From the NCBI RefSeq assembly GCF_008124605.1, contig NZ_VRYN01000002.1, positions 310,001 to 374,000 on the forward strand: a stretch of 64,000 nucleotides of DNA, given 5' to 3'. The notes beneath the pieces were generated by a model that was not told where the DNA came from, did not search any database, and saw only the letters and a program-made list of their open reading frames with translations. This DNA comes from Halobacterium salinarum DSM 3754. Lineage in GTDB: Archaea; Halobacteriota; Halobacteria; Halobacteriales; Halobacteriaceae. Of the stretch, positions 8,547 through 13,158 are shown one piece after another (positions within the stretch are counted from its first letter, which is position 1; each line of letters opens with the position of its first letter). The translations under genes and the position numbers were made by a program.

Positions 8547-10052
8547 TCAGTAGGACTTCGCGAAGTACGCCGTCCGCGTGGCCTCGTCGCCGCAGATCGC
8601 ACAGTCTTCGCCGTCGTGGTCGGGCTCGGGCACGCGCTCACCCTCTAACTCGGAGGCCGCGCGCGCCGCGGAGTCCTCGCCCAGGGGCACCATCACGATC
8701 TCGGCGGCGATCTGGTCTTTGATCTCGGCCTCACAGTCCTGGTCGCCACACCACGGTGCCTTCACGTAGCCGCCGTGCTGGCCGATGGTGCCCAGGATGT
8801 CGGCGCGGTTGTCCGCCTCCCGGACGTTCTCCGCAAGGCGGTCGGCGGCCGCGTCGTAGAGCTTGTCGTAGACCTCGTCGAGGTGGTCGTGGACGCGGTC
8901 GGCGATGGCCGCCCGGTCCTCGACGGTGCTTTCCCCGTCGGGCCGGTGGACCACGGTGACCTCGTCGTCCTCGACCTCGTTCGGCCCGATCTCGAAGCGC
9001 ACGGGCACGCCGTTGAGCTCCCACTCGTTGAACTTGAAGCCGGGGTTGCGGCCGTCGCGGTCGTCGAAGTGCACGCGCACGCCCTGTGCTTCGAGCTCCG
9101 CGGCGATCTCGGCGCCGTACTGTTCGACATCGTCTTTGGTGTCTTCCTGCCAGATGGGGACGATGACGACCTGCTTGGGCGCGACCGTCGGCGGCAACAC
9201 CAGTCCCTGGTCGTCGCTGTGGCTCATGACGAGCGCGCCGATGGCGCGCCAGGACAACCCCCAGGAGGTGGTGTACGCGGTGCGTTCGGCCTCGTCCTCG
9301 TCGGCGAACGTGATGTCGAAGGCGTCGGCGAACGACTGCCCGAGGTGGTGGCTGGTGCCGCCCTGCACGGATTTCCCGTCGGGCATCAGCGCCTCGACGG
9401 ACATGGTGGTGTCCGCGCCGGGGAACTTGTCGTGGTCGGGCTTGCGCCCGCGCAACACCGGGATGCCCAACACGTCCTCGTAGAGGCGGTGGTACTGGTC
9501 GAGGCGCAGCGTCGTCTCCGCCCACGCGGCTTCGTCGGTGGCGTGGGCGGTGTGGCCCTCCTGCCAGAGGAACTCCTTGGTGCGGAAGAACGGCTTGGTC
9601 TCCGTGGCCTCCCAGCGCACCACGGAGTTCCACTGGTTCACGCGCAGCGGGAGGTCGCGGTGCGAGCGCACCCACTGGGAGAGATACGGCGCGATGATCG
9701 ATTCCGAGGTGGGACGGACCGCGAGGCGCTGGTCGAGGTCATCGTGGCCGCCCTGTGTCACCCACGCGACCTCGGGGTCGAATCCCTCCACGATGTCCTT
9801 CTCGCGTTCGAGGTAGTCCTTGGGGATGAACATCGGGAAGTAGGCGTTCTCGACGCCGGTGTCCTTGAACCAGCCGTCGAGGTTGTCCTGGATCGCTTCC
9901 CAGAGGGCGTAGCCGCGGGGCCGGGTAACGATGAACCCGCCCATCGGCGCGTAGTCCGCCAGCCCCGCCTTCTGGACGACCTCGGCGTACCAGTCGCCGG
10001 GGCTGTGTTCCTTGGACTCGGTGATGCCGAGTTCCTGATCGTCGTCGCTCAT
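8547..10052 (-). CDS. proS: Prolyl-tRNA synthetase (archaeal/eukaryotic type)
   Basis: A 501-residue class II aminoacyl-tRNA synthetase charging tRNA-Pro. The start is MSDDDQELGITESKEHSPGDWY at 10052; the in-frame extension upstream reads as non-coding. Class II motifs are visible: motif 2 around VRWEATETKPFFRTKEFLWQEGHTAH near residue 150, the proline-specific GGTSHHLGQSFADAFDI segment near residue 235, and motif 3 around TSWGLSWRAIGALVMSHSDDQG. The anticodon-binding domain follows. The C-terminal domain includes a metal-binding pattern (APWCGDQDCE, then CAICG) and ends in aromatic FAKSY, typical of this type. A cttaaat TATA-like element about 30 nt upstream fits a leaderless transcript. Confidence 0.97.
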   Translation of the reverse strand: MSDDDQELGITESKEHSPGDWYAEVVQKAGLADYAPMGGFIVTRPRGYALWEAIQDNLDGWFKDTGVENAYFPMFIPKDYLEREKDIVEGFDPEVAWVTQGGHDDLDQRLAVRPTSESIIAPYLSQWVRSHRDLPLRVNQWNSVVRWEATETKPFFRTKEFLWQEGHTAHATDEAAWAETTLRLDQYHRLYEDVLGIPVLRGRKPDHDKFPGADTTMSVEALMPDGKSVQGGTSHHLGQSFADAFDITFADEDEAERTAYTTSWGLSWRAIGALVMSHSDDQGLVLPPTVAPKQVVIVPIWQEDTKDDVEQYGAEIAAELEAQGVRVHFDDRDGRNPGFKFNEWELNGVPVRFEIGPNEVEDDEVTVVHRPDGESTVEDRAAIADRVHDHLDEVYDKLYDAAADRLAENVREADNRADILGTIGQHGGYVKAPWCGDQDCEAEIKDQIAAEIVMVPLGEDSAARAASELEGERVPEPDHDGEDCAICGDEATRTAYFAKSY

Positions 10053-10173
10053 TGCTGGAACACTCGCCTGACGCGCTCTTAAATCCCGTGAAGCGTCTCC
10101 CGCCCGCCAACGTCCATGTGAACAATGCACATCCACCACGAAGACTAAGTAGTATGGTTACGTGCCACACAGT

Positions 10174-10326
10174 ATGGGCGACACGAAACGTGGTCGCGAA
10201 CGCACTGGCAAAAAGAAGCGCGAACAACTCCGCAAGCGCGACGTAGAGCGCTCCCTCCAGGCCACGAACGAGCCCACGGACCCGCCGGAGTTCCCGGACG
10301 GCGAACTCAGCCTCGGCGACCGCTGA
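10174..10326 (+). CDS. Small basic protein, 50 aa, unknown function
   Basis: An ATG-to-TGA frame of 51 codons encoding MGDTKRGRERTGKKKREQLR followed by an acidic, proline-containing tail (EPTDPPEFPDGEL). The N-terminal 26 residues are dominated by Lys/Arg, unlike the acidic proteome around it, which suggests contact with nucleic acid or ribosome; that is inference. A gactaagta TATA-like box centred about 24 nt upstream of the ATG supports a leaderless transcript. It lies between divergent proS and aCPSF1. Clear haloarchaeal codon use supports real coding. I do not recognise a named family. Confidence 0.65.
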   Translation: MGDTKRGRERTGKKKREQLRKRDVERSLQATNEPTDPPEFPDGELSLGDR

Positions 10327-10386
10327 CCGTCCCCGAAACGGTCGACGGCGCTCCGCGAACGGTCACTTCATCCCACGCTGAGCGGC

Positions 10387-10410
10387 TGCGATCCGCCATG
10401 TCGGATCGCA
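10387..10410. repeat. Perfect 9-6-9 inverted repeat upstream of aCPSF1 promoter
   Basis: TGCGATCCG (10387-10395), spacer CCATGT, then CGGATCGCA (10402-10410). It ends about 18 nt before the aCPSF1 TATA box, a position compatible with an activator or repressor site next to the BRE. It could instead act as the 3' hairpin of the small basic gene, which ends 61 nt upstream. No T-tract follows. Confidence 0.5.
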
Positions 10411-10421
10411 CACATAGTTTG

Positions 10422-10440
10422 CCAAGACTTTTATAACCTG
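10422..10440 (+). promoter_or_regulatory. aCPSF1 promoter (TATA element)
   Basis: The sequence gccaagacttttataacc contains a near-consensus haloarchaeal TATA box (ttttataa, 10429-10436) with a purine-rich BRE-like flank. The expected transcription start about 25 nt downstream is near 10458-10462, giving an unusually long leader of about 185 nt before the ATG at 10644. The next AT-rich stretch before the ATG (gttaacc, near 10633) is too close to serve as a leaderless TATA box. Confidence 0.6.
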
Positions 10441-10643
10441 ACTGTCTACCAGGTTGCAAGCGGGTTCTTCCACATCGTTCCCGCGGCCCGGCCGACGGCC
10501 GGCCGGGAACAGCATCTCACTACTGCCAATGATACCGCTGTGGTTGCCACCGTGCCCCCTGGGCCCCGCGCACACCGGCCCACATCGTCGCAGGTCCGTT
10601 ACGGACGGTGTCGCCACACTCGGGAACCCCGTGTTAACCGATT

Positions 10644-12569
10644 ATGAGTACTGTAGACCGTCAACTTGAGGAGTTACAGGACGAAATCGTCAGCGAAATT
10701 CCGGCGGACATCTCGGTCACCGATGTCAAATACGAAGGCCCCGAGCTCGTCGTCTACACCCGGGACCCCAAACAGTTCGCACAGGACGGCGACCTCGTTC
10801 GCCGGCTGGCGTCCAAGCTCCGGAAGCGCATCACCGTGCGGCCGGACCCGGCGGTACTCTCCAGCCCGAAGCGCGCCCGCGACCGCGTCCTCGACGTGAT
10901 CCCCGAGGAGGCCGGCGTCACGAACCTGGATTTCCACGAGGACACCGGCGAGGTGGTCATCGAAGCCGAGAAGCCCGGCATGGTGATCGGCCGCCACGGC
11001 TCCACGTTGCGGGAGATCACACAGGAAGCCGGGTGGACTCCGGAGGTCGTGCGCACGCCCCCGATCGAGTCCTCGACGGTCTCGAACGTCCGGAACTTCC
11101 TCAAACAGGAGCGCGACGAGCGCCGCGACATCCTCGAAACGGTCGGACGCCAGATCCACCGTGAGGAGATGCAGGACGACGAGTACGTGCGCGTGACGAC
11201 CCTGGGGTGCTGTCGCGAGGTCGGGCGCGCCAGCTTCGTGCTTTCGACGCCGGAAACGCGGATTCTCGTCGACTGCGGGGACAAACCCGGCAGCGAGGAC
11301 GAAGTCCCGTATCTGCAGGTCCAGGAGGCGCTGGCGGGCGGCGCGAACACGATCGACGCCGTGATTTTGACCCACGCCCACCTCGACCACTCGGCGTTCA
11401 TTCCGCTGCTGTTCAAGTACGGCTACGACGGCCCGATCTACTGCACGGAGCCGACCCGGGACCTCATGGGTCTGTTGACCCTGGACTACTTGGACGTGGC
11501 CGCGAAGGAGGGGCGGGCACCGCCGTACGACTCCGAGATGGTGCGGGAAGCGATCAAGCACTGCATCCCCCTGGAGTACGGCGATGTCACTGACATCGCG
11601 CCGGACGTGAAACTCACGTTCCACAACGCCGGTCACATCCTCGGGTCGGCCGTCTCCCATTTCCACATCGGGGACGGCCTCTACAACGTCGCGTTCTCCG
11701 GGGACATTCACTACGACGACACCCGACTGTTCAACGGCGCTGTCAACGACTTCCCGCGCGTGGAGACGCTCGTGATGGAGTCCACGTACGGCGGCCGCAA
11801 CGACTACCAGACCGACCAGGAGGACTCCGAGCGCAAACTCAAACGCGTCATCAACGAGACCTACGAGGACGGCGGCAAGGTCCTCATTCCGGCGTTCGCC
11901 GTCGGCCGGTCCCAGGAGATGATGCTCGTGCTCGAAGAGGCGATGCGGGAGGGCGAGATCCCCGAGATGCCCATCCACCTCGACGGCATGATCTGGGAGG
12001 CCACTGCCATCCACACCACCTACCCCGAGTACCTCCGGGACGACCTCCGGGATCGCATCTTCCACAGCGACTCCAATCCGTTCCTCGCGCCCCAGTTCAA
12101 CCACATCGACGGCGGCGAGGAGGAACGGCAAGCGGTCGCCGACGACGACCAGTGTATCATCCTCTCGACGTCGGGGATGGTCTCCGGCGGCCCCATCATG
12201 TCGTGGCTCGAACACATCGCGCCGGACCCCGATTCGACGCTGACGTTCGTCGGCTACCAGGCCCAGGGCACGCTTGGCCGCCGCATTCAGTCCGGGCGGG
12301 ACAAGATCCCGATGCCCGACTCTCGGAGCGGCGGCCGCACCGAGCACCTCCAACTCAACATGGGCGTCGAAACCGTCGACGGCTTCTCCGGACACGCCGA
12401 CCGCCAGGGCCTCGAAGACTTCGTGCGCACGATGAACCCCCGGCCGGAGAAAGTGCTGTGCGTCCACGGCGACGAGTCCTCCACACAGGACCTCTCGTCG
12501 GCGCTGTACCACGAGTTCAACATGCGGACGTTCGCGCCGAAGAACCTCGAAACGTTCCGGTTCGTGTAG
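10644..12569 (+). CDS. KH-domain/beta-CASP metallo-ribonuclease (aCPSF1, archaeal CPSF homologue)
   Basis: A 641-residue archaeal homologue of cleavage and polyadenylation factor CPSF73. KH-like domains fill roughly residues 1-150 (the GMVIGRHGSTLREITQ loop near residue 112 is a canonical KH signature). The metallo-beta-lactamase domain has HAHLDH at residues 244-249. The beta-CASP domain includes the VLIPAFAVGRSQEMML helix and STSGMVSGGP, and the C-terminus carries GFSGHADRQ and VHGD zinc/catalytic motifs. Archaeal aCPSF1 is known as a dimeric endo-/exoribonuclease required for 3'-end formation at U-rich terminators. Length and motifs are complete. It stands alone behind its own promoter and long leader. 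Confidence 0.95.
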   Translation: MSTVDRQLEELQDEIVSEIPADISVTDVKYEGPELVVYTRDPKQFAQDGDLVRRLASKLRKRITVRPDPAVLSSPKRARDRVLDVIPEEAGVTNLDFHEDTGEVVIEAEKPGMVIGRHGSTLREITQEAGWTPEVVRTPPIESSTVSNVRNFLKQERDERRDILETVGRQIHREEMQDDEYVRVTTLGCCREVGRASFVLSTPETRILVDCGDKPGSEDEVPYLQVQEALAGGANTIDAVILTHAHLDHSAFIPLLFKYGYDGPIYCTEPTRDLMGLLTLDYLDVAAKEGRAPPYDSEMVREAIKHCIPLEYGDVTDIAPDVKLTFHNAGHILGSAVSHFHIGDGLYNVAFSGDIHYDDTRLFNGAVNDFPRVETLVMESTYGGRNDYQTDQEDSERKLKRVINETYEDGGKVLIPAFAVGRSQEMMLVLEEAMREGEIPEMPIHLDGMIWEATAIHTTYPEYLRDDLRDRIFHSDSNPFLAPQFNHIDGGEEERQAVADDDQCIILSTSGMVSGGPIMSWLEHIAPDPDSTLTFVGYQAQGTLGRRIQSGRDKIPMPDSRSGGRTEHLQLNMGVETVDGFSGHADRQGLEDFVRTMNPRPEKVLCVHGDESSTQDLSSALYHEFNMRTFAPKNLETFRFV

Positions 12570-12660: not shown

Positions 12661-13158
12661 GTGAATCGCCCGCCGCTTCGCGCGATCGGAATGGCCATCG
12701 TCGTGCTCGTCGCGTTCACCGGCGGTGGTGCCGCCCAGCAGGCGGGCAGCGGCCCGAAAGTCGACGGTGACGGCGGGTACCGGTTCGACGTCGGGGGTGA
12801 CAGCCCCCACATCACGTTCTGGCTCCACCTCGATCTGTTGACGAACCTCGGTGGTGCCGGTGATCTCGGGTTCAGCGCGGTCGGAACCGCGCTCGACACC
12901 CGGGTCATCGTCATCGACCTCCAGTTGCAGTTCGACGGGATCGGGCCCCTGGAGGAGTTCCTCTCTGATCCGTTCTCGCGGTTCTCCGTGAGCGCGGAGT
13001 GGGAGCTCAACCTGCCGTTCCTCAGTGCCGGCCCGGCGTCGGACACGGAGTTCAGTTACGAGGGCAACGAAACGATCGCCAACAACACGTCCCTGGAGAA
13101 CGCGACCATCGGCACCGACACGCTGGGGAACGTCACCCGCAACGCCACCCAGTCCTGA
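12661..13158 (+). CDS. Secreted protein of unknown function
   Basis: A 165-residue protein with a GTG start. Residues 1-25 form a Sec-type signal peptide (basic NRPPLR, hydrophobic AIGMAIVVLVAF, then GGGAAQQA as a likely cleavage region). The mature part is acidic, with a beta-rich core (HITFWLHLDLLTNLGG, RVIVIDLQLQFDGIGPLEEFL) and an Asn/Thr-rich tail with several NxT/S sequons (NNTS, NATQS), so it may be N-glycosylated outside the cell. No C-terminal anchor is evident. A ctattatcata TATA-like box about 27 nt upstream supports the start. It converges on nth, 1 nt apart. No known family recognised. Confidence 0.75.
   Translation: MNRPPLRAIGMAIVVLVAFTGGGAAQQAGSGPKVDGDGGYRFDVGGDSPHITFWLHLDLLTNLGGAGDLGFSAVGTALDTRVIVIDLQLQFDGIGPLEEFLSDPFSRFSVSAEWELNLPFLSAGPASDTEFSYEGNETIANNTSLENATIGTDTLGNVTRNATQS

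Follow-up and report, generated by a model that had tools for sequence, protein, structure and literature searches.

The gene for the ribonuclease and transcription termination factor aCPSF1 (also called FttA) in the 64,000-nt stretch of Halobacterium salinarum DNA analyzed here (the window) is preceded by a long predicted leader, and comparison across the class Halobacteria strongly supports a cis-regulatory leader of this gene that is class-wide and single-copy. We consider it probable that this is a conserved two-part regulatory leader, in which translation of aCPSF1 is coupled to an upstream open reading frame (uORF) and gated by a hairpin at the RNA 5′ end. The hairpin (P1, followed in Halobacterium by P2) would present a U-rich motif, GGUUUUC or GGUUCUC, and would set the amount of RNA that reaches or serves the uORF and the reinitiation step; ribosomes would start on the uORF and proceed to aCPSF1 through termination-reinitiation, and aCPSF1 synthesis would depend on leader translation. 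Of the factors that might act in trans on the U-rich hairpin, aCPSF1 itself would be the likeliest, giving negative feedback. Translation of the uORF is very likely, coupling of aCPSF1 translation to it is rather likely, and feedback by aCPSF1 is a tentative suggestion. The leader looks like a built-in control over the amount of an essential enzyme. In window coordinates, its features and those of the gene are:

10418–10436, + strand: promoter, with BRE region TTTGCCAAGAC and TATA box TTTTATAA (TATA 10429–10436), identified by conservation.
10458–10459, + strand: predicted transcription start AA, from the 25-nt distance to the TATA centre, the invariance of AAGCGGGTT and the spacing of GCGGGTT.
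10460–10464, + strand: P1 5′ arm, GCGGG, from the test for a CCCGC partner.
10465–10469, + strand: U-rich motif after the P1 5′ arm, UUCUU in the window, from motif counts in 142 leaders.
10477–10510, + strand: hairpin of an earlier note on this DNA, an alternative fold with an unconserved outer stem, from folding and a 13-sequence alignment.
10480–10484, + strand: P1 3′ arm, CCCGC, with UU directly before it (10478–10479), from a survey of loops.
10487–10507, + strand: P2 hairpin CCCGGCCG/CGGCCGGG (10487–10494/10500–10507), the core of hairpin 10477–10510.
10529–10669, + strand: uORF of 46 codons, starting at the single AUG in the leader, from the ORF listing (same frame from TTG 10454) and class statistics.
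10594–10606, + strand: small hairpin inside the uORF, unconserved in relatives.
10644–12569, + strand: aCPSF1/FttA, beta-CASP ribonuclease and transcription termination factor, from TIGR03675.

The gene starting at 10644 matches TIGR03675 with 967.9 bits (cut-off 580.2), and this assignment, together with the role described for FttA (PMC11616081, PMC8716108), makes it the gene of a termination factor, as in leaders of the rho type. Its promoter TTTGCNAAGRCTTTTATAA is unchanged in 13 of 13 Halobacterium sequences (the window aligned with 12 genomes), and across the class TTG[CAG]GAA[GA] occurs in 133/142 leaders and TTTTAT in 134/142. The 5′ end AAGCGGGTT, which begins at 10458, 25 nt 3′ of the TATA centre, is likewise identical in all 13 sequences, and GCGGGTT lies 31–33 nt downstream of the TATA start throughout the class. 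A10458 is hence a well-predicted start, giving a leader of 186 nt, in line with the strong TATA box and leader of about 185 nt that the earlier note had described. For comparison, 72% of the coding transcripts of Haloferax volcanii have no leader, and only 97 carry one longer than 150 nt (PMC4983044). An inverted repeat, TGCGATCCGCCA/TGTCGGATCGCA at 10387–10410, stands immediately 5′ of the promoter in the window and is absent from the 12 aligned relatives.

The strict pattern of TATA plus AGCGGGUUYUC was found in 266 of 391 class genomes, once in each except for two copies in G274, and its reversed control in 2/391. The genome of the window falls outside the strict matches because of GCGGGTTCTTC; a looser pattern matches its leader and one other genomic place. 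A variant, BCGGUUUUCCGG (BCGGTTTTCCGG in DNA), occurs once each in a further pattern search in 28/391 genomes (controls, 0). The element was confirmed 5′ of aCPSF1 in the 12 genus genomes and at 6/6 pattern loci, and the variant precedes aCPSF1 in all nine matches with coordinates comparable to aCPSF1 loci. A first set of 93 loci (80 from the class, 12 genus genomes and the window) came to 91 without L002 and L003, which duplicate L120 and L122, and a script found the element in 89 of these. In a second set of 59 loci (30 + 29) from genomes lacking the strict first motif, some of which carry the variant, 53 have a leader with a TATA-anchored core of the GGUUYUC type. Element and leader were thus found by script at 142 of 150 class loci, showing that a long leader is conserved at this gene. 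The loci dropped as having no element by script were L014 and L075, and L136, L145, L159 and L192–L194; L136 and L145 nevertheless have a uORF ending at +4. The 142 still include a few species in duplicate (the leaders of L018/L166 and of L031/L133, for example, appear identical), and a count over 43 groups, given below, removes these duplicates.

The element at the 5′ end reads AAGCGGGUUYUC...UCCCGC, with P1 formed by 10460–10464/10480–10484. Promoter, 5′ end, CCCGCGG and a GC-rich hairpin are preserved in the genus alignment, in which P1 and the P2 core (CCGGCC 10488–10493/GGCCGG 10501–10506) are paired in 100% of cells in 13/13 sequences; the arms hardly vary, so the genus offers no covariation signal for them. 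Folded from the window sequence alone, the first 60 nt of the leader form P1 and a P2 extended to 10487–10494/10500–10507. Across the class, 68 of 82 GCGGGTT loci have a CCCGC partner no more than 30 nt away (mean 10.3, maximum 19 in 500 shuffles); these loci were selected by that very motif, so only the partner arm counts as a test. The Halorussus/Haladaptatus group retains the CCCGC partner 44–90 nt away. Among 25 distinct sequences of the variant family, 21 contain a perfect 6-bp complement to the hexamer that follows UUUU (expected 1.75, maximum 7 in 500 shuffles), with the double changes GGAC/GUCC, GAAC/GUUC, GGGU/ACCC, GCGU/AUGC and GGGC/GCCC. The excess of partner arms and the two-sided changes in the variant point to an element that acts by RNA pairing. 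The P1 loop might form a pseudoknot with sequence 3′ of P1, candidates being CCUGG/CCAGG in Natrialbaceae and CGUCU/AGACG in L071 and L081; in a scan of 78 loci, which include many close relatives, the mean longest match was 3.86 against 3.15 when shuffled.

The long leader proposed in the earlier note is real, with a length that is well predicted, but the stems it named differ from the conserved ones. Hairpin 10477–10510 is locally stable on paper (−22.5 kcal/mol, z −2.22, with 3/200 shuffles as good; z −3.01 with flanks) and its inner part is kept, with 75.7% of cells paired over the 13 sequences. Its outer pairs are broken in 10/13 (alignment columns 22–53 and 23–52) and 7/13 (24–51), and as a conserved structure it was rejected with regard to this outer stem. 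The smaller hairpin at 10594–10606 folds locally (z −2.90), but its sequence is not maintained in relatives. Overall stability was rejected as a sign of structure: the whole leader folds at −70.7 against −70.4 ± 5.0 for dinucleotide shuffles (z −0.06), 87 of 200 of which are at least as stable. No Rfam family resembles the leader at its gathering score in 10050–10800 (E-value mode; best 13.3 bits against 42), and with an E-value limit of 5 the sole match was GNAS-AS1_3 (E 2.7), on the opposite strand.

What the leaders have in common is a U-rich stretch in the loop of the hairpin or beside it, roughly 8 nt into the predicted RNA. It is UUUU in 86/142 leaders and UUCU in 56/142, and the window and most of its genus carry UUCU(U), not U4. 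The KH domains of aCPSF1 bind U4 tracts (PMC8716108), and FttA reportedly favours cutting where a U stands at −1 and a U-rich stretch lies at −9 to −14 relative to the 3′ end thus made (PMC11616081); given this published preference, the U-rich motif makes autoregulation by aCPSF1 plausible. The same preference bears on the rival that survives best, namely promoter-proximal attenuation, which would make this leader the archaeal equivalent of the autoregulated rho leader. Here, abundant aCPSF1 would cut its own nascent RNA at the 5′ element and stop transcription early unless ribosomes on the uORF kept up close behind. Among 39 distinct P1 loops, 37 have a U directly before the C-run, 12–17 nt (mode 14) after the first U, a spacing that matches the FttA preference and fits an FttA-type site at about +8 to +22, although the fit was noticed only after the sequence had been seen and the cleavage consensus derives from a hyperthermophile. 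FttA has also been called a Rho analogue that may police the coupling of transcription and translation (PMC11616081), and rho expression is autoregulated through attenuation within the rho leader (PMC6582626); a stable hairpin, however, may impede a nuclease that prefers single strands. On balance we regard attenuation as unlikely, albeit worth keeping in mind, and a specific form of it as doubtful, in which FttA would control itself through an FttA-dependent terminator near the promoter, at +8 to +22 of its own mRNA in the loop of the 5′ hairpin, and ribosomes on an obligatory uORF would override termination irrespective of the peptide made.

It is improbable that the element is instead a DNA site for a transcription factor just 3′ of the start. 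Its fixed position relative to TATA and the strongly conserved promoter would agree with such a site, but the partner arm is conserved at distances of about 13 to 90 nt and the hairpins of the variant family covary, both of which argue for an RNA structure.

The second part of the leader, the uORF at 10529–10669, had not been mentioned in the earlier note. In the window it stops 26 nt inside aCPSF1, and its frame differs from that of relatives, in which the overlap is 4 nt. In 114 of the 142 leaders, an ORF of at least 20 codons begins at the first AUG and ends between −15 and +26 of the aCPSF1 start; counting any AUG, this holds for 128, with stops close to the start codon as in coupled ORF pairs. 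Full shuffles of the leaders gave 17.7 (maximum 28) for the first AUG and 27.6 (maximum 43) for any AUG; shuffles that kept the first AUG and randomized the sequence after it gave 60.6 (maximum 80) and 68.8 (maximum 87); and native DNA upstream of the promoter gave 25/142 and 26/142. When leaders were grouped by blastn linkage (clustering at 62% global identity had merged everything), 37 of the 43 groups without shared detectable leader similarity had a first-AUG uORF, against 5.1 (maximum 12) in full shuffles and 22.1 (maximum 31) when the first AUG was kept. With end limits of −10 to +26, a fitting uORF was present in 83 of the 89 leaders of the first set, stopping at +4 in 56, −2 in 8, −3 in 5, +8 in 5, +17 in 3, +26 in 3, −9 in 2 and +14 in 1. 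The conserved ATGAG at the aCPSF1 start gives the +4 stop for free, so only the choice of frame and its openness carry weight, and the shuffle that keeps the first AUG allows for this. In general, the first AUG, in most leaders the sole one, lies about 40–110 nt from the RNA start, the uORF mostly has 20–70 codons, and its stop overlaps or abuts the aCPSF1 start. Exceptions are leaders with no AUG (L023, L143), with a short AUG ORF (2 codons in L180, L182 and L184; 14 codons in L150), with a stop elsewhere (+149 in L133/L031, +65 in L022/L024, −158 in L033) or otherwise lacking a fitting uORF (L176, L185).

The frame is kept and the peptide is not, a pattern that suggests selection for the passage of ribosomes to the aCPSF1 start. 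Changed uORF codons have a mean BLOSUM score of −0.69 in Halobacterium (shuffled columns −0.10, s.d. 0.24) and −0.075 in Natrialbaceae (null −0.137, s.d. 0.126), whereas the first codons of aCPSF1, used as a control, score 3.83 against a null of 0.84. These codon tests in Halobacterium and Natrialbaceae gave no sign of purifying selection on the peptide; the groups were drawn from loci with a fitting uORF, so their zero in-frame stops reflect selection of the loci and are not evidence. A conserved small protein was accordingly rejected as a candidate, the codon changes being no more conservative than shuffled columns. A simple two-gene operon with a functional small protein in the leader is thus very unlikely: an AUG and frame are maintained in most leaders and N-termini resemble each other within families, but no likeness is evident between families. 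Least likely of all is the separate small RNA that the earlier note had offered as an option, for although the 5′ part is the best conserved and has its own promoter, the element lies directly 5′ of aCPSF1 in every checked case, the downstream half of the leader carries a uORF tied to the aCPSF1 start, and no conserved terminator was seen in the genus alignment over the stretch from the element to the gene.

The leader appears to be a derived trait. In other classes of the phylum (L200–L224), the C-terminus of a proteasome subunit beta precedes aCPSF1 at 24 of 25 loci, the sequence at L206 being too short to tell the upstream gene, and the same holds for 4/4 loci in two families of the same order (L159, L192–L194). 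The distance from psmB to aCPSF1 is 3–140 nt, and the four upstream proteins tested were all proteasome beta. With psmB upstream both in early-branching families and in other classes, we infer that the leader was acquired when aCPSF1 left the psmB neighbourhood. Were the terminator at +8 to +22 true, it would represent an independent archaeal invention of rho-leader logic, gained on that departure. Some genomes (G026, G058, G062, G107, G120, G142, G165, G173, G179, G257 and G259) encode a second full-length aCPSF1 that is 66–72% identical. A leader with TATA and GCGGGTT was absent upstream of the paralogues in 7/7 cases (L160–L165, L195); those of L160, L161 and L195 have GGTTCTT at about −90.

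A close parallel is the rhoL–rho leader of Escherichia coli and other bacteria, in which the gene of a termination factor likewise has an upstream leader and Rho feeds back on its own level (PMC6582626, PMC12121999), whereas for aCPSF1 feedback is hypothetical. FttA is not homologous to Rho (PMC11616081), and the aCPSF1 leader differs in having a uORF that overlaps the gene and a 5′ hairpin. Overlapping or abutting stop-start pairs have been reported as coupled by termination-reinitiation in H. volcanii (PMC12548453), where both partners are genes; ahead of aCPSF1, a short, unconserved ORF takes the upstream place. Leaders of 150–250 nt with short ORFs are likewise known from H. volcanii, but Table 2 of PMC4983044, which gives 16 uORFs of 15–31 aa, does not contain HVO_0874, the gene named aCPSF1 in that species (PMC10470531). 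The Haloferax relatives in our set (L056, L063) have a uORF of 45 codons that overlaps aCPSF1, unlike the 15–31 aa of that table. In the literature searched on aCPSF1/FttA autoregulation, UTRs and haloarchaeal uORFs, we found no description of this aCPSF1 leader or of the control of termination factor levels in archaea. A gene-specific, class-wide leader with its frame kept and its peptide unkept offers a concrete handle on this control. It is testable in H. volcanii, in which the HVO_0874 promoter has already been repressed by CRISPRi, with TATA, +1 and ATG marked in a figure of that paper (PMC4946936).

In relatives from several families (L118, L047, L056) a divergently oriented gene for a protein of about 160 aa (MELTPA...) begins about 70 nt before the leader, and none was seen at the corresponding place in the window. 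A 50-aa ORF at 10174–10326 on the + strand (MGDTKRGRERTGKKKREQ...) matched no Pfam or NCBIfam family; its DNA has matches in 12/12 other genus genomes, and it probably encodes a conserved small basic protein. On the 3′ side, aCPSF1 is followed by a DUF7332 protein (Pfam PF24019) of unknown function at 12661–13158 on the + strand.
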